A stretch of 64,000 nt of DNA from Luteimonas sp. JM171 (GTDB lineage Bacteria > Pseudomonadota > Gammaproteobacteria > Xanthomonadales > Xanthomonadaceae): NCBI RefSeq assembly GCF_001717465.1, contig NZ_CP017074.1, forward strand, positions 40,823 through 104,822, given 5' to 3'. Each line of letters starts with the position of its first letter. Position 1 is the first letter of the stretch. The notes beneath the pieces are model-generated. The model was not told where the DNA came from, searched no databases, and saw only the letters and a program-made list of their open reading frames with translations. The position numbers were made by a program, and so were the translations under genes. Below, piece by piece: positions 31,015 through 56,712 of this stretch.

Positions 31015-31988
31015 TCGTCCGCCCCTTCCGCCGGGCGGCCATGGGTGGCGGCGACGAAGACGTCTTCCAGGTTGGCCGGTACCGGCTCCACGTCCGCCGC
31101 CAGGCCCGCCGCGGAGAGCGCCGCCGTGATCGCCGCCACGCTGTCCTGGCCGGGATCGGACAGCACCCGCAGGCTGTTGCCGATCTGCGCGGCGCTGATC
31201 ACGCCGGGCAGATCGGCCAGGGCCTGCTGGGCGCGCCGGGGATGGCGCGCATGCACCTGCACGCTGCGCCCGGCCAGCGCGCCGGCCAGCTCGCCCGGCG
31301 CGCCATCGGCCACCAGCACGCCGCGGTCGAGGATGGCGATGCGGTGGCAGCGCTCGGCCTCGTCCATGTAGTGGGTGGACACCAGCAGGGTGGTGCCGGC
31401 GTCGGCCAGTTCGAACAGCTTCTCCCAAAAGTCGCGGCGTGACTCCGGGTCCACCGCGCTGGTGGGCTCGTCCAGGAACAGCAGCTCGGGCCTGTGGATC
31501 ACGGCGGCCGCCAGCGCCAGGCGCTGCTTCTGGCCGCCGCTCATGGTGCCCGCGAGCTGCTTCTGGCGATCGCCGAAGTGGTAGCGCTCGATCAGCTCAT
31601 CGACCCGGCTGCGGGTCGCTGCGCGATCCAGGCCATACACGGCGGCAAGGAACTCAAGGTTCTCCCGCACCGTCAGGTCCTCGAACAGCGAGAACTTCTG
31701 GGTCATGTAGCCGATCCGCAGGCGCAGCGCCTCGGCCTGCTCGGGGACGCGCAGACCAAGCACCTCGATGTCCCCCGCGCTGGGGGTGAGCAGGCCGCAC
31801 AGCATGCGGATGGTGGTGGACTTGCCCGAGCCGTTGGGGCCGAGGAACCCGTACACATTGGCGCGCGGCACCGTGAGGTCCACGCCGTCCACGGCCACCA
31901 GGTCGCCGAACCGGCGGGTCAACCCGCGGGCACGGATGGCGGCCGGGGCATCGGCTGGTCCCGGGGTATCGCCATGGGCGCCATCCAT
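31011..31988 (-). CDS. ABC transporter ATP-binding protein (YbhF-like)
   Basis: 325 aa with Walker A GPNGSGKST, Q-loop YMTQKFSLF, signature MSGGQKQR, Walker B LLFLDEPTSAVD and H-loop STHYMDEA. A C-terminal domain typical of drug-export ATPases ends in LEDVFVAATHG. A single nucleotide-binding domain is present, whereas E. coli YbhF has two. The start overlaps the hlyD stop by 1 nt (TAATG). Confidence 0.95.
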   Translation of the reverse strand: MDGAHGDTPGPADAPAAIRARGLTRRFGDLVAVDGVDLTVPRANVYGFLGPNGSGKSTTIRMLCGLLTPSAGDIEVLGLRVPEQAEALRLRIGYMTQKFSLFEDLTVRENLEFLAAVYGLDRAATRSRVDELIERYHFGDRQKQLAGTMSGGQKQRLALAAAVIHRPELLFLDEPTSAVDPESRRDFWEKLFELADAGTTLLVSTHYMDEAERCHRIAILDRGVLVADGAPGELAGALAGRSVQVHARHPRRAQQALADLPGVISAAQIGNSLRVLSDPGQDSVAAITAALSAAGLAADVEPVPANLEDVFVAATHGRPAEGADE

Positions 31989-32965
31989 TACCGCGCGCGC
32001 CCCCCGGTGTTGAATTCCACCTGGACCGGAAGCCCGGCGGGCAGCCCCTCGGCCGCCGGCTCCAGCTGCACCTCGGCCAGGTAACCCAGGCGGGAAACGT
32101 CGTCGCCGGTGAGCGCGTAATAGGGTGTGAAAGCAGGCTCGCTGCGGATCATCCGCACCTCGCCGGCGTACGAGCGGCCGCTGCCTTCCAGCCGCACCTG
32201 GACGGGCGTGCCGACAGCCACCTGTTCGCGGATCGCCTGGGGCACATGGATTCGGGCGTAGGGGGCGTCACCCACCAGCAGCACGACCAGCGGCGCGCCG
32301 ACCGGGGCCTGGTCACCGCTGCGGTAAGGCAGGCTGTCCACGCGCCCGGCACGCGGCGCCACCACGCGCAGCTTCCCGGCCGTCGCCTCTTCTGCCTGGA
32401 CGCGTGCCTGGGCCGCCTGCAGCGCCGCGCTCGCCTGGGCAAGCTGCTCCGGCCGGGCCCCGTTGAGCAGTTCGTCCAGCGCTGCCTGCCCCGCCCGGAC
32501 CTGGGCGTCCGCGCTCTGCGCCGCCGCACGCGCGGCATCCACGTCCGCGGCTGACACCAGTTGCTCCTCGCCCAACGGGGCCAGACGCTGGTACCGGGAC
32601 CGGGCGTCGCGCGCCTGCGCCTGCGCCGCCGCCAGGCTGGCCCGTGCCTGGGCGATATCCTCCTGCCGCGCTCCCGCCTGCAGCTCAAGCAAGGCTTCGC
32701 GGCGCTGGCTGGCCTCGGCCTGGCTGGCCATCAGCCGCGCGTCTGCGCGGGTCCGCTCCAACGTGAGCAGGGTGGCGCCTTGGGCCACCTGCTGGCCTTC
32801 GCGCACATGGATGCCGGTGATGGTCTCGCCTTCCGGCGCCGGCACGGTGATGCGGTCGTACTCCAGCGTACCCACGGCCTGCGGGGTGCCCGGAGCGCAG
32901 GCAGCCATGACCGCGAGCATCGACAGCAGCGCGGCGCCTTTCGCCAGGCGGATTGCAACGCTCAT
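31988..32965 (-). CDS. HlyD-family periplasmic adaptor (YbhG-like), probable lipoprotein
   Basis: 325 aa from ATG 32965, overlapping the tetR stop (ATGA). The N-terminus ends in a lipobox VMAAC, so it is probably lipidated. The layout is adaptor-like: half-lipoyl EGETITGIHVREGQQVAQG, a long Ala/Gln-rich coiled-coil hairpin (about 80-190), then the second lipoyl half and beta-barrel. It should link the inner-membrane ABC pump with an outer-membrane channel encoded elsewhere. Confidence 0.92.
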   Translation of the reverse strand: MSVAIRLAKGAALLSMLAVMAACAPGTPQAVGTLEYDRITVPAPEGETITGIHVREGQQVAQGATLLTLERTRADARLMASQAEASQRREALLELQAGARQEDIAQARASLAAAQAQARDARSRYQRLAPLGEEQLVSAADVDAARAAAQSADAQVRAGQAALDELLNGARPEQLAQASAALQAAQARVQAEEATAGKLRVVAPRAGRVDSLPYRSGDQAPVGAPLVVLLVGDAPYARIHVPQAIREQVAVGTPVQVRLEGSGRSYAGEVRMIRSEPAFTPYYALTGDDVSRLGYLAEVQLEPAAEGLPAGLPVQVEFNTGGRAR

Positions 32966-33680: not shown

Positions 33681-33759
33681 CGAGCGAACGGCGCCTGAAC
33701 TTGCTTCGGATGGGAGCGTCAGGCGCCGAAACCGCGCCGGTGCGCTAACCTCCCCGCTT

Positions 33760-34746
33760 ATGACCCAGACCACCCACCGCGACTTCACCCTTGATCCCGC
33801 CGACAGCGAGCGGCTGGCCAACCTGTCCGGGCCGTTCGACGGCCACCTGCGCCAGATCGAGCTGCGCATGGGGGTGGAAATCGCCAATCGCGGCAACGTC
33901 TTCAGGGTGAGCGGGCGCGACGCGGAGACGGTCGCGCAGGCAGAGCGGCTGCTGCGCAATCTCTATGAAGATGCCGCCACCGAGACCCTTGATACCGGGG
34001 CCATCAACGTGCGCCTGAGCCAGTCGAACCTGGAGCGCAACCCGGAGGATTACTCGCCGCAGGAAGTGACGGTGAAGGTCAAGCGCGGCACCGTGCGCGG
34101 CCGCGGCGCCAACCAGGCCCGGTACCTGCATTCCATCGCCACCCACGACATCAACTTCGGCGTCGGCCCGGCCGGCACCGGCAAGACCTTCCTTGCCGTG
34201 GCGATGGCGGTCGAAGCCCTGAACGAGTCCAAGGTGCAGCGGCTGGTGCTGGTGCGCCCGGCTGTGGAGGCCGGCGAGAAGCTGGGCTTTTTGCCCGGCG
34301 ACCTGAGCCAGAAGGTCGATCCCTACCTGCGCCCCCTCTACGACGCCCTGTACGAGATGCTGGGCGTGGAAAAGGTCATCAAGCTGCTGGAAAAGAGCGT
34401 GATCGAGATCGCCCCGCTCGCCTACATGCGCGGGCGGACCCTCAACGACGCGTTCGTGATCCTGGACGAGGCCCAGAACACCACCATCGAGCAGATGAAG
34501 ATGTTCCTGACCCGGCTGGGCTTCGGCTCCACCGCCGTGGTCACCGGCGACCTCACCCAGATCGACCTGCCCCGCCATGTGAAGTCCGGGCTGCGCGATG
34601 CCATCGAGGTGCTGCGCGATGTGGACGGGGTCGGGTTCACCTTTTTCGAATCCCGCGATGTCGTGCGCCACCCGCTCGTGGCCCGGATCGTCAGCGCCTA
34701 CGACAGCCGCGACGAGCGGGATGGAGCCAACGGTGCGGCGCCATGA
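33760..34746 (+). CDS. ybeZ: PhoH-like ATPase YbeZ
   Basis: 328 aa from ATG 33760. An N-terminal KH-like segment precedes the ATPase domain with Walker A GPAGTGKT and Walker [12 protein letters not shown]. It is the partner of the endoribonuclease YbeY in rRNA and ribosome quality control. The ybeY start overlaps its stop (ATGA). The upstream extension of the frame into tetR territory is not coding. Confidence 0.95.
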
Positions 34747-35225
34747 CCGACAGCCATGAACACCTGAACGTCGCCGTGGGATACGGGATGGCCCGCAAGG
34801 GGATCCCGGCCGCAGCCAGTTTCCGCAAGTGGGCCGTGGCGGCCCTGGCGGGGCGGGTCCGCGAGGCGGACGTGGCGATCCGGATCGTCGACAGCCGCGA
34901 GGGCCGGTCGCTCAACCGCCATTACCGGGGCAAGGACTATGCCACCAATGTGCTGAGCTTCCCCGCGGAACTGCCCGAGGGGCTGCCGGAGGAATTCCAC
35001 ATGCCCCTGCTCGGCGACCTGGTGATCTGCGCCCCCGTGGTGGCCCGCGAGGCCCGCGAGCAAGGCAAGCTGCCGGCGGCCCACTACGCCCACCTCACGG
35101 TGCACGGGGTGCTGCACCTGCTCGGCTGCGACCACGAGGACGAACGCGAAGCCGAGGCCATGGAGCGCCTGGAGCGTGAAATCCTCGCCGGACTCGGCTT
35201 CGACGACCCCTATCTGGACGCTTGA
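34743..35225 (+). CDS. ybeY: Endoribonuclease YbeY (rRNA maturation factor)
   Basis: 160 aa with the zinc motif [11 protein letters not shown] (HxxxHxxxxxH) and YATNVLSFP. It acts in 16S rRNA 3'-end maturation and ribosome quality control. Translation is coupled to ybeZ by a 4-nt overlap, and corC follows 83 nt downstream. Confidence 0.97.
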
Positions 35226-35308: not shown

Positions 35309-36181
35309 ATGCCAGAAGACGACAGTAGACCTTCACAGGAACCTCCAGACAAACGCCGGGGCTGGCTGGACCGCATCAGCTCGGCCCTTTCCGGCGAACC
35401 CACCACCAGGGAAGACCTGGTTGAAATCCTGCGCGATGCCCAGGCCGAGGGCCTGATCCAGGAAGACACGTTGCGCACCATGGAAGGGGCGATGGCGATC
35501 TCGGAGATGACGGTGGGCGACGCGATGATCGCGCGCTCGCAGATGGTCTCCGTGCCGATCGACGCGAGCTACGACGAGGTGCTGGAGCTGGTGGTGGAGT
35601 CCGGCCATTCGCGGTTCCCGGTGCACGGCGAGGACAAGGACGAGGTGCTGGGCATCCTGCTGGCCAAGGACCTGCTGCGTGGCGCCCTCCCCGGCGCCAC
35701 GCCGCCGAGCCTGCGCGAGCTGCTGCGGCCTGCGGTGCTGATTCCCGAGTCCAAGCGGCTGGACATCCTGCTGCGCGAGTTCCGCCAGTCGCGCAACCAC
35801 ATGGCGATCGTGATCGACGAGTACGGCGGCGTGGCGGGGCTGATCACGATCGAGGACGTGCTGGAGGAGATCGTCGGCGAGATCGACGACGAGTACGACC
35901 TGGCCGAGGACAGCGAGGCGCTGATCGCCGCCCAGGCCGACGGGCAGTTCCTGGTGGATGCGCTGACGCCGATCGAGGATTTCAACGAGCGCTTCGGGTC
36001 GGATTTCGGCGATGACGAGTACGACACGATCGGCGGGCTGGTGACCGCGGCGATCGGCCACCTGCCGGAGGCGGGCGAGGAGCTGACGCTGGGGCGGTTC
36101 GGGTTCCGGGTGGCCCGGGCGGATTCGCGGCGGCTGCATGCGCTGCACGTGAGCGTGCATCCCGAGGCCGAAGAGGCGTGA
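35309..36181 (+). CDS. corC: CorC/HlyC-family CBS-domain protein (YbeX)
   Basis: 290 aa. Two CBS domains (about 60-180; MVSVPIDASYDEVLELV, GHSRFPVHG, VIDEYGGVAGLITIEDVLEEIVGEI) precede a CorC_HlyC C-terminal domain. YbeX is linked to magnesium/cobalt handling and ribosome function. It is the third gene of ybeZ-ybeY-corC. Its stop overlaps the GTG start of the next gene (GTGA). Confidence 0.95.
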   Translation: MPEDDSRPSQEPPDKRRGWLDRISSALSGEPTTREDLVEILRDAQAEGLIQEDTLRTMEGAMAISEMTVGDAMIARSQMVSVPIDASYDEVLELVVESGHSRFPVHGEDKDEVLGILLAKDLLRGALPGATPPSLRELLRPAVLIPESKRLDILLREFRQSRNHMAIVIDEYGGVAGLITIEDVLEEIVGEIDDEYDLAEDSEALIAAQADGQFLVDALTPIEDFNERFGSDFGDDEYDTIGGLVTAAIGHLPEAGEELTLGRFGFRVARADSRRLHALHVSVHPEAEEA

Positions 36182-37395
36182 GGATTCGCGCGGGTTCGCT
36201 GGCTTGGCGCGCGCCTGCGATGGCCATGGCCCTGCTGCTTTGGGCGTTCGCGTCCGTCGCGGCGGCGGCCCCGCGCATCGGGGTGGCGACCATGCAGCCG
36301 GGGGAGATCTTCTTCGAGCGGTTCGGCCACAACGCGATCGTGGTGGACGACCCGGCGTTCGAGGAGCCCATTTCCTACAACTTCGGCTACTTCGACATGG
36401 AGGAGCCGGGGTTCGTGCGCAATTTCATCCGCGGGCACATGGAGTACATGCTGGTGGCCCTGCCGCTGTCGCAGGACCTGGCGTACTACCGGCACGTTGG
36501 CCGTGGCGTCTCGATCCAGTGGCTTGATCTTGAACCGGAGCAGGCGCGCGGGCTGGCCGATGCGCTGGAGGTGAACGCGCGGCCGGAAAACGCGCGCTAC
36601 CGGTACGACTACTTCCTCGACAACTGTTCCACCCGGGTGCGCGATGCGATTGACGCCGCGCTGGGCGGCTCGCTGGCAACCCAGCTGCAAGGCCGTTCCC
36701 GCGGCAACACGTTCCGCGCCGACGCCGTGCGCCTGGCGTCCCCCACGTGGTGGATGTGGCTGGGCTTCGACCTGGGGCTGGGGCCGGCCGCCGACCGGCC
36801 CAACTCGCGCTGGCAGGAAGCGTTCGTGCCCATGCGACTGGCCGAGGGCCTGCGCGACACGCGGTTGCCGGACGGCCGGCCGCTTGTGGCTGAGCAGGTG
36901 GAACTGGTCCCGCACATGCTGCCGCCCGAGCCGGCCGAGGCCCCCCGCCGCTGGTGGCCGTGGCTGGTGGCCGGGCTGGCGATTGGTGGACTCATCGCCT
37001 GGGCCGGGGCGCGCTGCCCGGCCGTGGTGGCAGGCGCCGCCCTGCCCTTCTGGCTGCTGTGCGGGGTTGGCGGCCTGTTGATCGCCTACATCTGGTTCGG
37101 CACCGCGCATACATTCGGCTGGAACAACCACAACATCCTGCTGCTCAGCCCGCTGTGCCTGCTGGCGCTGCCCGGCGGCTGGCGGATCGCCCGCGGCCGG
37201 CGGCCGGGCCGGCTGTTCGGCTGGGTGCTGGCGCTGGTGGCGCTGGGCGGCGCGGTGGCGCTGTTCTGGAACTGGATGCCGGTGCTGCCGCAGCGGAACA
37301 TGCCGTGGATCTGCCTGCTGCTGCCCATCCACCTGGCACTGTGGCTGGCGCTTGCCCGTCCCCGTGCGGACGCGCGACCCGACCTGCAGGAGTGA
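36178..37395 (+). CDS. DUF4105 / Lnb-like membrane protein in the lnt position
   Basis: 405 aa from a GTG overlapping the corC stop, so translationally coupled. A signal peptide or anchor (about 12-31) precedes a periplasmic domain (about 33-190) with FGH (His51), ISYNFGYFD and DYFLDNCSTRVRD (Cys150). This matches the Lnb N-terminal domain family (DUF4105). About five membrane helices follow (roughly 255-390). Lnb of Firmicutes moves an acyl chain onto the lipoprotein N-terminus to make lyso-form lipoproteins. In E. coli the gene after corC is lnt, the apolipoprotein N-acyltransferase. No Lnt-like gene is seen in the window. Acyltransferase function is inference. Confidence 0.85.
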   Translation: MRIRAGSLAWRAPAMAMALLLWAFASVAAAAPRIGVATMQPGEIFFERFGHNAIVVDDPAFEEPISYNFGYFDMEEPGFVRNFIRGHMEYMLVALPLSQDLAYYRHVGRGVSIQWLDLEPEQARGLADALEVNARPENARYRYDYFLDNCSTRVRDAIDAALGGSLATQLQGRSRGNTFRADAVRLASPTWWMWLGFDLGLGPAADRPNSRWQEAFVPMRLAEGLRDTRLPDGRPLVAEQVELVPHMLPPEPAEAPRRWWPWLVAGLAIGGLIAWAGARCPAVVAGAALPFWLLCGVGGLLIAYIWFGTAHTFGWNNHNILLLSPLCLLALPGGWRIARGRRPGRLFGWVLALVALGGAVALFWNWMPVLPQRNMPWICLLLPIHLALWLALARPRADARPDLQE

Positions 37396-37428: not shown

Positions 37429-38682
37429 TCACTGGCCGGCCATCATCCTCAGGATCTGACCGGTGAAATAAGCCAGGACCGTACCGGTCGCGTAGCCAAC
37501 CGTCCCCAGCAACACCCCGACCGGCGCCAGCGTCGGGTGGAACGCCGCCGCGACCACCGGTGCCGAAGCGGCGGCACCAATGTTGCCCTGGGAGCCCACG
37601 GCGAAATACAGCAGCGGCGCCTTCACCAGCCGCGCCGCGCCCCAGATCACGAGCACGTGCACGGCCATCCACAGGGCGCCGATCACCAGCAGCTCCGGAC
37701 GCTCGGCCAGGCGGAAGAAGTCCATCTGCATGCCGATGCAGGCAATCAGGAAATACAGGCACACGGTCCCCACCCGCGAGGCTCCCGCGTTCTCCAGCTG
37801 GCGCACGCGGGTGAAGCTCAGGCCCAGGCCGGCAAGGGTGGAGAGGACCACGATCCAGACGAAGCTGGAGTCCAGGCTGAACCGGCTGGCCCAGGCCATG
37901 TTCGCGGAGAACCACCCGGCGATCGGATTGGAGACCGCGTGTGCCAGGGCGACGATGCCGAACGCCAGGCCGACGATCACCATCAGGTCGGTCAGGGAGG
38001 GGATCCGCGCGTTGGCCGCCTCGTAGGCCGCGATCCGCTCGCGCATCTCATCGATCGCCGAGGTGTCGGCACCGCTGCGCCGGTCGATCTGCTCGGCGCG
38101 GTTGGCCAGGAACAGCAGCGTGGCCAGCCACAGGCTGGCAAAGGCCACGTCCACCACCGCGAACTGGCCGAACAGGGTGGCATCGACCTCATAGATCTCG
38201 CGGATGGCCACCATGTTGGCCCCGCCGCCCATCCAGCTGCCCGACAGCGCGGCCATTCCGCGCCAGGTGTCGCCCGCGACCGCCGCGGGCCAGACCCATT
38301 CCAGGACCTGGAAGCTCACGATGGCCCCCAGGATGATCCCCAGGGTGCCGGCACAGAAGACGAACAGCAGCCGCGGACCGAGCTTGAGGATGCCCTTCAG
38401 GTCCACGGACAGGGTCAGCAGCACCAGCGCCGCCGGCAGCAGCACGCGGCTGCCGAAGTAATACAGCTGGCTGCCTTCGCCGTCGATCAGCCCGGCGGTG
38501 TTGTAGATCGCGGGCACGAAGTAGCACAGCAGCAGCGCCGGCACCCAGGCGAAGAACTTCTTCCAGAACGGCGTCGGTCCGCTGGCCAGGTAGAAGATGG
38601 CGCCCAGGGTGGCGGCGATGAGGCCGAACACCACGATGTCGTTGGTGATCAGCGCGGTGGAAGCGGCGGTTGCTGGCGCCAT
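37429..38682 (-). CDS. DUF819 family membrane protein (YjcL-like)
   Basis: 417 aa with about 11-12 hydrophobic helices and the DUF819 motifs AALSGSWMGGGANMVAI and FAVGSQGNIGAAASAPVVAA. The family is an uncharacterised set of putative transporters with some resemblance to sodium/solute carriers. It lies just downstream of the DPP5-like peptidase gene but behind a strong terminator, so it probably has its own promoter. Confidence 0.88.
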   Translation of the reverse strand: MAPATAASTALITNDIVVFGLIAATLGAIFYLASGPTPFWKKFFAWVPALLLCYFVPAIYNTAGLIDGEGSQLYYFGSRVLLPAALVLLTLSVDLKGILKLGPRLLFVFCAGTLGIILGAIVSFQVLEWVWPAAVAGDTWRGMAALSGSWMGGGANMVAIREIYEVDATLFGQFAVVDVAFASLWLATLLFLANRAEQIDRRSGADTSAIDEMRERIAAYEAANARIPSLTDLMVIVGLAFGIVALAHAVSNPIAGWFSANMAWASRFSLDSSFVWIVVLSTLAGLGLSFTRVRQLENAGASRVGTVCLYFLIACIGMQMDFFRLAERPELLVIGALWMAVHVLVIWGAARLVKAPLLYFAVGSQGNIGAAASAPVVAAAFHPTLAPVGVLLGTVGYATGTVLAYFTGQILRMMAGQ

Positions 38683-47260: not shown

Positions 47261-49138
<1,878 letters not shown>

Positions 49139-50351
49139 GCCGATGCCGGACGCGGGCTCATCGCGAACGCCGCCGCCAGGTCAAACTCCGAAAGCGGGCT
49201 TTCCGCAGGGCATGTTTCATCGGGGAAGCCATAGTCCGCGCGCAGCTCCAGGCCGCATTCGCTCAGCGTTTCAAGGTCGGTGCCGGACGCCTTGCAGCGA
49301 TTGTCGAACGCGCGCACGAACGAGTCGCGGCGCCGCACGAAGTCCTCGCCGCACTTGCGCATCAGCCGCAGCCTGTCGAGGTCGTCCTGGGCCGGATTGA
49401 CCCCATCCAGCCCGTAGCGCTGCAGCTCGTCCACGGTGAGCATGCGCAGGCTGCGGTTGGGCACGACCATCATCATGTCGGCGATCGCCACCGCCGCGCC
49501 GTTGCGCTCCAGGTATGAGCGCACCCGGTCATGCACCGCGCGCAGCTCCGCATTGAGCTCGCGCCGGGTGGTGGCGGTGGAACTCATGCGGATGATGCGG
49601 TGGATGCCCACCCGGCCCGCGATCAGCCGGGTGTCACCCGCGCTGAGGATGAACACGCAGGAGCTGTGGCAATCCGAGCCCTCGCGTACCCAGATGGTCC
49701 AGCCGGATTCCGCGATCAGGTCGCCGGCCTCCATCGAGTCCTCCACCTGGCCGCCGGCCGAATCGATGTCGAGCACCCGCTTGTCGATGCCCAGCTCATC
49801 GGCCACCGCGATGATGCGCTCCATCAGGCCAGTGAACTCGGCGGTGAGGCGTCCCTCATAGCGCAGGCGCATCACCCGACGCTCCGCACACGGCGCCATG
49901 GCTTCAACCAGCTCCTCGCGGCCAACGACCTCAAGCTCTTCGCCATCGCCCGCGGCGCTGTAATCCAGCTCGCAGCTGATCGACGCCGACCCCTCCTCCA
50001 GCACGGTGGGCGTCCAGTCGAGCTCGCGTGGGCCCGGCTCGGGCTCGGCAACGGGCGGGGTCACCGCCTCCGCCTCTTCCCCGGGCACCTCCACTGGCGC
50101 CATGCTCACCGCCCCGCCCTCCGCCGGACCCTCCACCTCCTCCGTGCGCACCGTCAGCGCGTCCTCCCCGGGCGCTGGTGCCTGGCAGGCAACCAGCAGC
50201 ACCGCACCCAGGAGGAAGAGGCAGGTTTTCAGGGGAATCGGCAGCATCGGTTCTCCGCGGGCGGCACGGCGCCGGTGCGCTCGGCCTCAGCGGAACAGTC
50301 TAGGGGCCTCACGGGCCGGCGCCCGAACGCGGGGTAAATCCCCCGCCTGAT

Positions 50352-50866: not shown

Positions 50867-51568
50867 ATGCCTGCCAATCCACCGATGCCGGGTGCCGTCC
50901 GCGCCTTGCCCCTGACGGTCACCTGCCTCCTCGCCGCGCTGCTGGCGGCCTGCGGTTCCGAGCCGGCTCCGCCCGGGTCCACGGGAGAATCCCCGACCGT
51001 CCCGACGCCGGACGCCACGGGGGAGCCAACGCAGCCGGCCACGAGCCCCGATGTCCTGGAGGCACCCAGCCAGGACCTGGCGCCCACGCGCGCGCTGGAA
51101 GTCACCGTCGAGGGACACACCGAGTTGCGCGAGGCAGCCCTGTTCGAAAGCCCGCAGGGCTATGCGATGTACGTGCTGCCGCAGATGACAATGACGCCCG
51201 AGGAGCCCTGCTGCGACATTGCCTGGGCGCGCGCCGACGATGAATTCACGCTGCGCATCGAACGACTGGATCCCGATCAGGACCTCGCGGTGCTGCGCGA
51301 AAACATGGCCTTGGCCCTGTCAGCGGTGGGCGAGGCGGAAGAACTGCCGCGCGACCAGATCTGGGCGCCGCAGTTCCGCGACGCCGAGCTCGCAATGCGG
51401 GCGCAAAGCGAGGCAGCCAGCCGCTACATGCTGGTGGCGCAAATCGACGGCGCCCGCTACCGCGCCACCCTGCACCTGCCCCACCGTGAAGCGCTGGAGG
51501 GCATTGCCCCCACCATGTGGGCGATGCTGGACAGCCTGCGGACCACCGGACCGCGGCCGCCCGTGTAA
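50867..51568 (+). CDS. Putative lipoprotein of unknown function
   Basis: 233 aa from ATG 50867. The signal sequence ends in lipobox LLAAC, followed by a Ser/Pro/Thr-rich linker (about 30-65) and a globular domain with EEPCCDIAWARADDEFTLRIE. I do not recognise a family. It is probably anchored to the outer membrane, facing the periplasm. It stands alone between MAPEG and a small membrane protein. Confidence 0.75.
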   Translation: MPANPPMPGAVRALPLTVTCLLAALLAACGSEPAPPGSTGESPTVPTPDATGEPTQPATSPDVLEAPSQDLAPTRALEVTVEGHTELREAALFESPQGYAMYVLPQMTMTPEEPCCDIAWARADDEFTLRIERLDPDQDLAVLRENMALALSAVGEAEELPRDQIWAPQFRDAELAMRAQSEAASRYMLVAQIDGARYRATLHLPHREALEGIAPTMWAMLDSLRTTGPRPPV

Positions 51569-52534: not shown

Positions 52535-53077
52535 ATGGAACCCAGGAAATTTCCCCTGGCCATTGCGCTTGCGCTGGCCGTCGGCGCGCTGGCGGCAGGC
52601 TGCGCCCAGGACACCCCCATCGGCGAAACCGCCGGCGCACCGGCGATTGAGGCGGCCGCTCCCGTCCCTGCGGACCACCCGGCCCACGACGACGGGCACA
52701 CGCAGGACCACGACCACGACGTCTCCCATGCCGCCGGGGTCGACTTCCCGGTGCCGGACAACCACGTCAAGTGGGAGCCGGATGCCCCCCTGGTGGAAGG
52801 CATGTCGCGCGTGCGCGGCGCCATCGACGGCCTGGGCCAGGCCGGTGACGAGGCCGCCGTCCTGGCCGGCGCGGCGGAGGTCGACGCCGCCATCGAATAC
52901 ATGTTCGAGAACTGCAGCCTGCCGGTGGAGCCGGACGTCGCCCTCCACGCCGTGCTGGCGCGCCTGATGGCGGCCACCCAGGCCCTCAATGCCGATCCGT
53001 CGGACACCTCGCCGGTGCACGACATGCACGCGGCGGTGGACAACTACGAGGCGCTGTTCGACGACCCCAACGCCTGA
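52535..53077 (+). CDS. Lipoprotein with His/Asp-rich segment, unknown function
   Basis: 180 aa from ATG 52535, set by GGAGGA 4 nt upstream. Lipobox LAAGC is followed by a linker rich in His and Asp (HPAHDDGHTQDHDHDVSH, about 53-70), which could bind divalent metal. A helical C-terminal domain (VEGMSRVRGAIDGL, AAIEYMFENCSLP, HAVLARLMAATQAL) follows. That domain resembles small four-helix stress proteins, but I cannot name a family. It ends 40 nt before hutU, with which it is convergent. Confidence 0.72.
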   Translation: MEPRKFPLAIALALAVGALAAGCAQDTPIGETAGAPAIEAAAPVPADHPAHDDGHTQDHDHDVSHAAGVDFPVPDNHVKWEPDAPLVEGMSRVRGAIDGLGQAGDEAAVLAGAAEVDAAIEYMFENCSLPVEPDVALHAVLARLMAATQALNADPSDTSPVHDMHAAVDNYEALFDDPNA

Positions 53078-55416: not shown

Positions 55417-56712
55417 ATGATCGATTCCCGCCTGTTCAGACTCCCCGCGCTGCTCCTGTCCGCCGCCCTGCTCGCTGCCTGCGCCTCGGCGCCGCCCGCG
55501 CCTTCCTCGCCTGCGGCACAGGTCGAACCGTACACCCTGCTGCTGGTGTCACTGGACGGCGTCCACCCCGATGACCTGACCCGGGGCGACACCCCCAATC
55601 TGGAGCGCCTGGCCGTGCAGGGCGTGCAGGCCGAAGGCATGGTCCCCTCCTATCCCACGCTGACCTTCCCCAATCACTACACCCTGGTCACGGGGCTGCG
55701 ACCGGACCGCCACGGCATCGTGCACAACTCCATGTCCGATCCCGGGCTGGGACGATTCACCCTGCGCGATCGCGATGCCGTGGGCAACGGCCGCTGGTGG
55801 AGCGACGGTGAGCCGCTGTGGGTGACCGCGGAGAACGCGGGGATCCCGACCGCCACACTGTTCTGGCCCGGCAGCGAGGCACCGGTGCGCGGCGTGCAAC
55901 CCACCCGCTGGACCCAGTTCGACTCCAACCTGCCCAAGGGCGAGCGGGTGGACCGGGTCCTGTCATGGCTGTCCGAGCCCGACGGTACGCGGCCGCGGCT
56001 GGCCACCCTGTATTTCGAACACCCGGACGGCGCCGCCCACGCCCACGGCCCGGGCTCGCCGGAACTGCGCGCGGCGATGCGCGCGGTGGACGCGCAGATC
56101 GGGCGGCTGGTGCAGGGGATCGACGACGCCGGGCTTTCCGGCAGCGTGGACCTTGTCATCGTTTCCGACCACGGCATGGCCGCGGTGCCTGAAGACCAGG
56201 TGGTGGCCTTCGAGGAAATGGTGGACCCTGCCCTGGTGGAACCGGTGAGCTTCGGACAGTCGGTCGGATTCAACCCGGCGCCGGGGCGCGAAGCGGAAGC
56301 CGAAGCCGCCCTGCTCGGCAAGCACGAACAGTACGCGTGCTGGCGCAAGCAGGAGCTGCCGGCGCGCTGGCAATACGGCAGCCATGCCCGGGTGCCGGCG
56401 ATCGTGTGCCAGATGGAGGAAGGCTGGGATGCCTTGCCGGCGCAGTACATCGAGCGCCGGCCTCCGGGCACGCGGGGCTCGCACGGCTATGATCCGGCGC
56501 TGCCCTCGATGCGCGCGATCTTCATCGCCCGCGGCCCCTCGTTCGCCGAGGGCGTGCGCCTGCCGGCGTTCGACAACGTCGATGTCTATCCCCTGCTGGC
56601 ACGCCTGCTTGGCGTGGAACCGGCGGATCACGACGGCGACGCCAGCACCCTGCTCCCGGCCCTGGCGCATCCCCCGGCCCACCCGGCATCCGTGTCCGGA
56701 AACGTCCGGTAG
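55417..56712 (+). CDS. ENPP-type nucleotide pyrophosphatase/phosphodiesterase lipoprotein
   Basis: 431 aa from ATG 55417. The lipobox LLAAC (Cys22) is followed by an alkaline-phosphatase superfamily domain. It has Asp47 (LVSLDGVHPD), nucleophile Thr83 in TLTFPNHYT, metal-site EHPDGAAHAHGP, SDHGM and GSHGYDP. Such enzymes cleave nucleotides or phosphodiesters in the periplasm. A long upstream frame extension is non-coding. Confidence 0.93.
   Translation: MIDSRLFRLPALLLSAALLAACASAPPAPSSPAAQVEPYTLLLVSLDGVHPDDLTRGDTPNLERLAVQGVQAEGMVPSYPTLTFPNHYTLVTGLRPDRHGIVHNSMSDPGLGRFTLRDRDAVGNGRWWSDGEPLWVTAENAGIPTATLFWPGSEAPVRGVQPTRWTQFDSNLPKGERVDRVLSWLSEPDGTRPRLATLYFEHPDGAAHAHGPGSPELRAAMRAVDAQIGRLVQGIDDAGLSGSVDLVIVSDHGMAAVPEDQVVAFEEMVDPALVEPVSFGQSVGFNPAPGREAEAEAALLGKHEQYACWRKQELPARWQYGSHARVPAIVCQMEEGWDALPAQYIERRPPGTRGSHGYDPALPSMRAIFIARGPSFAEGVRLPAFDNVDVYPLLARLLGVEPADHDGDASTLLPALAHPPAHPASVSGNVR

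Follow-up and report, generated by a model that had tools for sequence, protein, structure and literature searches.

An Lnb-family candidate N-acyltransferase in the lnt slot of the ybeZ-ybeY-corC operon of Luteimonas sp. JM171

The gene behind corC

We analyzed a stretch of 64,000 nucleotides from Luteimonas sp. JM171 (hereafter the window; coordinates are window positions), whose genome (2.99 Mb, one contig, 99.97% complete) carries a gene similar to lnb, rather than lnt, at the end of its ybeZ-ybeY-corC operon (Table 1). We consider it likely that this gene, a member of the Lnb family, supplies the bacterium with its apolipoprotein N-acyltransferase and that it replaced lnt in place in a ybeZ-ybeY-corC-lnt operon. 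An earlier, sequence-only reading of the window had described a GTGA overlap with corC, a signal peptide, a periplasmic domain, and about five membrane helices, all of which we confirmed. The ends of the open reading frames and the Pfam matches place the overlap at the end of ybeZ-ybeY-corC, and hydropathy gives a signal-like segment at residues 12-30. The protein matches Lnb_N (PF13387; E = 2.3e-16, 60.3 bits, curated cut-off 22.2) and 5TMH_Lnb (PF25221; E = 1.1e-7, 32.4 bits, cut-off 25.2), and its AlphaFold2 model (predicted local distance difference test score 94.8) shows the periplasmic domain followed by five long helices (260-279, 281-308, 325-338, 345-366, and 375-392). The NCBIfam model for lipoprotein N-acyltransferase Lnb, NF051878, covers residues 30-390 (E = 9.7e-50, 169.5 bits). 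Only Lnb models matched in our Pfam and NCBIfam scans of the protein, libraries in which the presence of a Lit model is unconfirmed.

His51 and Cys150, the pair that the sequence-only reading had picked out, proved to be real and conserved in close orthologs. Together with His311, Asn317, and Pro325, each is found in 139 out of 139 distinct Lysobacterales rows (143 extracted sequences plus the window protein, duplicates removed; in all counts the family is named Lysobacteraceae and the order Lysobacterales). In a 24-sequence alignment chosen by hand, with 12 sequences from Lysobacterales and 12 from the Bacteroidota side (10 named so; P0217 and P0228 not), 18 columns are invariant, including those of His51, Asn149, Cys150, His311, and Asn317. 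His311 and Asn317 possibly contribute to the active site or help to handle lipid.

The best structural alignments of the AlphaFold2 model are with permuted NlpC/P60 proteins and extend over most of the periplasmic domain. The nearest solved structures include YiiX and the effector TseH, with H-REV107 weaker, and the matches to these permuted NlpC/P60 (LRAT-type) proteins are confined to the periplasmic domain. These proteins act on other substrates. Sequence searches of the Protein Data Bank (PDB) for a solved Lnb structure returned nothing significant, and the 50 structure-comparison rows contain no nitrilase, an absence that carries no weight. A match to another fold had been named beforehand as a result that would speak against the Lnb assignment; the superfamily that we found is the one in which DUF4105, the family to which the gene had been assigned, is placed by a recent study (PMC12994826).

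Table 1. Features of the corC-lnb locus, in window coordinates.
Feature	Position	Strand	Details
ybeZ (PhoH-like), start approximate	33745..34746	+	PF02562, 3.4e-95
ybeY	34743..35225	+	PF02130, 1.1e-32
corC/ybeX, immediately 5' of lnb	35309..36181	+	CBS and CorC_HlyC domains
GTGA overlap of corC stop and lnb start, possible translational coupling	36178..36181	+	
lnb-like gene, apolipoprotein N-acyltransferase candidate	36178..37395	+	GTG start, 405 residues, Lnb_N and 5TMH_Lnb
Lnb_N periplasmic domain, residues 26-165, permuted NlpC/P60-like fold	36253..36672	+	Pfam and AlphaFold2 model
His51, putative catalytic base	36328..36330	+	invariant in 139/139 Lysobacterales rows and in 24/24 rows of both groups
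Cys150, putative acyl-enzyme nucleophile	36625..36627	+	invariant in 139/139 and 24/24
Five membrane helices, residues 260-392	36955..37353	+	5TMH_Lnb match and AlphaFold2 secondary structure
His311 to Asn317, between membrane helices 2 and 3	37108..37128	+	both residues invariant

The lnt slot and the distribution of Lnb and Lnt

The sequence-only reading had noted no Lnt gene in the window, and this extends to the whole genome: LNT_N has no match, and TIGR00546 gives five weak matches, the best of which reaches E = 1.2e-5 and 25 bits (cut-off 132.9). Four genes match CN_hydrolase (PF00795), and none of them overlaps an LNT_N match. At least three underlie the weak TIGR00546 matches (1.2e-5, 7.4e-5, and 0.0035). 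The best-scoring of the four is a 293-residue open reading frame adjoining one that by eye is GNAT-like; the remaining three, placed here by profile match, have open frames of 315, 268, and 592 residues. From the LNT_N, TIGR00546, and CN_hydrolase searches we reject the idea that the genome harbors an overlooked or diverged Lnt, unless one has diverged very far. E. coli-type Lnt (TIGR00546, PF20154 and PF00795) shares the slot behind corC with the window gene, whose product would carry out the same reaction, but it is built of LNT_N and CN_hydrolase domains, neither of which the Pfam scan found in the window protein. The protein had been proposed to add to, replace, or modify Lnt; replacement fits this genome, while a two-enzyme system does not, as no Lnt was detected.

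We compared the gene neighborhood across relatives in locus sets that may share genomes. Among the best 80 of 115 relatives, which are named loci from Luteimonas, Lysobacter, Stenotrophomonas, Pseudoxanthomonas, and unclassified or metagenome-assembled records, the closest to the window protein are from Luteimonas. All 76 of these loci with more than 1 kb before the match have corC directly upstream of Lnb on the same strand, and the remaining four begin inside corC. The same order of genes is found in 35 out of 37 further short-flank loci (the exceptions are L219 and L231), and for ten further families of the order corC adjoins Lnb in all 20 regions, with a gap of 829 bp in one (L251). Spacing was scored in the 140 loci (of 143) in which a corC open reading frame was called (starts chosen by script): the two genes overlap in 59, lie within 30 bp in 33, within 150 bp in 39, and further apart in 9, and the 4-bp overlap of the window recurs in 25 of the 140. 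Elsewhere in the class Gammaproteobacteria, Lnt lies directly behind corC in 18 out of 20 loci (exceptions L085 and L092). On its other side, the window gene is convergent with a DUF819 membrane protein gene (37429-38682, minus strand), which also adjoins Lnb in loci L095 and L054.

To place this arrangement, we scored genomes of the family (n = 247), the order (n = 180), and the class (n = 321) for Lnb (E <= 1e-20, 1e-12, and 1e-15, respectively) and for Lnt (TIGR00546 over its cut-off); a divergent Lnb or Lnt could be missed at these thresholds because the models were trained on distant relatives. Lnb is present in 238 of the 247 family genomes and unmatched in nine (G030, G036, G066, G094, G110, G114, G176, G204, and G205), eight of which are at most 95% complete; G205 is 99% complete. 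In the order, Lnb is present in 172 out of 180 genomes. Five of the eight without a match (G603, G609, G675, G692, and G710) are 80-88% complete, and G609 also has an Lnt-like gene over the cut-off. The other three (G568, G578, and G580) have the top three Lnt scores of the order sample (304.5, 298.5, and 304.6 bits, ahead of 223.7 in fourth place). Two of these, G568 and G578 (94% and 96% complete), make up family f180, in which corC and lnt lie two bases apart with no Lnb match. The G580 locus (L254) reads phoH-ybeY-corC-lnt, followed by an open reading frame that by eye resembles metK. In the class sample, Lnb was found in only 4 out of 321 genomes, namely this genome and three of its family, none of which has Lnt, while TIGR00546 is over its cut-off in 289 and at E <= 1e-25 in 292.

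Probable history of the exchange and relation to Bacteroides Lnb

A CorC tree of 50 rows places all 29 that bear Lnb on one side of a single branch (support 91/77); family f180 joins them next, and both together are supported at 97/93. The G580 corC is far from all other rows (end branch 4.72), and this genome may be misplaced in the order. Because of its odd corC, the metK-like gene behind its lnt, and this possible misplacement, G580 was left out of a second tree of 73 rows, which shows the same split with lower support (82/46), so that the position of f180 is likely rather than firm. The simplest reading of these trees would be that lnb took over the place of lnt after the f180 split, probably once and in an ancestor of most Lysobacterales, and has since descended mostly vertically. 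An Lnb tree of 56 proteins chosen by hand (38 from Lysobacterales, five of them database proteins including P0133 and P0137, and 18 from the Bacteroidota side, 11 of them named so) parts the two groups on one branch (100/98). Within it, families f1, f176, f178, f185, and f186 each hold together, and f177, f181, and f183 do not. This tree covers two groups only and is unrooted, so that it gives neither donor nor direction of transfer.

Lnb was reportedly described as the lipoprotein N-acyltransferase of Bacteroides by Armbruster et al. (PNAS, 2024). In a plasmid collection, Lnb matches came from five records, all from Bacteroidota. The protein of Bacteroides finegoldii (WP_055279177.1) scores 667 bits against NF051878, over its cut-off, and its BLASTP alignment with the window protein spans 350 residues at 29% identity (E = 2e-39). 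The two share the two-domain architecture, the invariant His and Cys, and the invariant His and Asn of the membrane part, but they differ in host (Bacteroidota versus Gammaproteobacteria), and the window protein stays under the equivalog cut-off. The position of the gene differs as well: in B. finegoldii and Parabacteroides distasonis, lnb lies 5' of an alkaline phosphatase-family gene and secA, and here it lies behind corC. Both of those loci (L272 and L276) come from 108-125 kb "plasmid" records with core genes, for which the plasmid label looks doubtful. Judged by architecture, homology, and conserved residues, we assign the window protein to the Lnb family, outside the NCBI equivalog as currently bounded; relatives already carry the label "lipoprotein N-acyltransferase Lnb domain-containing protein" in public databases (NCBI).

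Other types of DUF4105 protein were also found. A second one in this genome (L001:883-2709; 608 residues, DUF7844 plus Lnb_N, with the Lnb_N match at genome positions 2262224-2262733) was rejected as a true Lnb, as it is without 5TMH_Lnb and has no NF051878 match. A further type, found in some Lysobacteraceae (L022:1108-2160), has Lnb_N scores of about 1e-50; by eye, hydrophobic segments precede its domain, and the adjoining open reading frame resembles a lipoprotein with a hydrolase-like end. Possibly this is another envelope acyl enzyme.

Competing readings and consequences

Slot, complementarity, and homology together argue strongly for Lnb as the lipoprotein N-acyltransferase here, and the undetected Lnt, the slot, the invariant His and Cys, and the homology to Bacteroides Lnb give strong support to the earlier proposal that a diderm has filled its lnt slot with a non-orthologous enzyme. 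The mechanism is modeled on Bacteroides Lnb, which is reported to add a third acyl chain to lipoproteins (PMC13103446 and PMC11694511), and on the fold superfamily: from these, the window protein would have acyl-transfer activity with an acyl-enzyme step, and its donor and product would correspond. The expected product would be the triacylated form and not the lyso form. Candidate substrates are at hand in the window, where the sequence-only reading had already predicted several lipoproteins: of 6 lipobox pattern matches from a crude script, 5 look genuine by eye, and these plausible signal peptides belong to the open reading frames at 31988-32965 (minus strand), 49060-50247 (minus strand), 50885-51568 (plus strand), 52535-53077 (plus strand), and 55417-56712 (plus strand). 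The first of these resembles, by eye, a periplasmic adaptor next to an ABC exporter.

Several observations weigh against this assignment. The NF051878 score of the window protein is far under the equivalog cut-off of 550, which none of the 247 family genomes reaches, and we do not claim the equivalog name for it. However, four tested proteins from Parabacteroides, Hymenobacter, Flavobacteriaceae, and Dyadobacter also fall under the cut-off (220-398 bits), so that it bounds the named equivalog and not the family. With Foldseek alone, no PDB structure matched below E = 1e-3; the best was TseH at 7.4e-3. In the class sample, 25 out of 321 genomes have neither Lnt nor Lnb at the thresholds used, and absence of Lnt alone therefore demands no substitute. 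TIGR00546 is over its cut-off in 54 out of 247 family genomes (LNT_N in 63), 52 of which also have Lnb, and in 24 out of 180 order genomes, 20 of them with Lnb. G205 holds an Lnt-like gene with no Lnb detected, and we found no assembly explanation that would make a contig break the cause: no piece of corC, ybeY, or Lnb is present in the first or last 4 kb of contigs 1-60 or in all or most of contigs 61-70 (only the near parts of C63 and C66), the contigs covered.

About one fifth of the family genomes thus keep an Lnt-family gene elsewhere in the genome. At the extra Lnt-like loci, corC was found within about 1.5 kb in 0 out of 20 in the family and 0 out of 26 in the order (some genes counted twice). 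In all aligned rows the Lnt catalytic triad of Glu, Lys, and Cys is retained, which also counts against a simple replacement, and in lineages holding both, labor may be divided between Lnb and the Lnt-like protein. Most aligned rows have C-x-D instead of C-Y-E, and many of the proteins have at least 800 residues. Those of L010:1-2034 and its relatives in L004-L014, L062-L069, and L178-L195, many of about 820 residues, carry C-x-D, lie away from corC, and are patchy in Lysobacterales. One genome (G102) has a 531-residue Lnt with C-Y-E intact, away from corC, plus a normal corC-lnb pair.

The most serious alternative, although we hold it to be improbable, is that we are dealing with an NlpC/P60-type hydrolase or transferase whose substrate is a phospholipid, peptidoglycan, or a different lipid of the envelope, and that the lipoproteins of Lysobacterales stay diacylated. 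The breadth of the fold superfamily, with YiiX and TseH among the nearest solved members, the DUF4105 protein of other architecture in the same genome, and the class genomes with neither enzyme are compatible with it, as are the diacyl anchors modeled for Xanthomonas campestris B100, where Lnt was not identified and the anchors were deduced from its absence (PMC10368991, 2023). Unlike the L001 protein, however, the subgroup of the window protein has the full Lnb architecture and an NF051878 match, and the gene sits in the lnt slot with a presence largely complementary to that of canonical Lnt. A second alternative, which we regard as very improbable, is a Lit-like action, in which an acyl chain is moved within the lipoprotein to give an N-acyl S-monoacyl (lyso) form. 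The sequence-only reading had ascribed lyso formation to an Lnb of Firmicutes; that Firmicutes enzyme is Lit, which N-acylates lipoproteins by intramolecular transfer and appears to belong to a family other than that of the window protein. Lit is able to stand in for Lnt in E. coli (review PMC11784454), and Lol transport could therefore be sustained by a step of the Lit kind, but we saw no relation to Lit, Pfam gives Lnb_N and 5TMH_Lnb only, and the nearest characterized relative is the Bacteroides enzyme with its third acyl chain. Least credible of all is a two-enzyme system in which the task is divided between Lnb and an Lnt-like protein: the 52 family genomes holding both and the retained Glu, Lys, and Cys speak for it, but no Lnt-like gene was found in this genome, which excludes it here as far as assembly completeness and model sensitivity reach, and in other genomes the additional genes are not near corC and mostly carry C-x-D, many in long proteins.

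An exchange between the two enzyme types is known in general. DUF4105 proteins are described as repeatedly displaced by Lnt in three genomic contexts (PMC12994826, PLoS Biol 2026); the direction stated in the available text is Lnt displacing DUF4105, with no order-wide loss of Lnt stated, and its main text is without xanthomon, lysobacter, corc, or ybey, while its contexts figure may include the corC slot. Almost all Gracilicutes are said to produce Lnt in the review PMC11784454, whose available text has no word beginning with xanthomon. Among the titles and abstract openings listed by searches of open-licence papers, we found no report of Lnb as a lipoprotein enzyme of a proteobacterium. The NCBI label on relatives and the general DUF4105/Lnt exchange were thus already known; what is new, as far as we searched, is the order-wide, in-place character of the swap and an explanation for the missing Lnt of Xanthomonas.

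Iso-branched fatty acids are abundant in the membranes of both Bacteroidota and Lysobacteraceae. As a speculation that we think unlikely, the whole order might have exchanged Lnt, once and in place, for a thiol N-acyltransferase of the Bacteroidota type, an exchange selected by acyl-chain chemistry, in that Lnb may accept iso-branched donors and Lnt may not. If so, the lipoproteins of Lysobacterales would be triacylated with a branched N-acyl chain by an enzyme untouched by Lnt inhibitors.

Returning to the replacement of Lnt by Lnb itself, the locus would offer a clean natural case of non-orthologous replacement inside one operon slot. If Lnb performs N-acylation here, an enzyme unrelated to Lnt probably completes triacylated lipoproteins in Xanthomonas, Stenotrophomonas, Lysobacter, and Luteimonas, which would change models of Lol transport and of immune recognition in these bacteria, as well as the target for an inhibitor of N-acylation.
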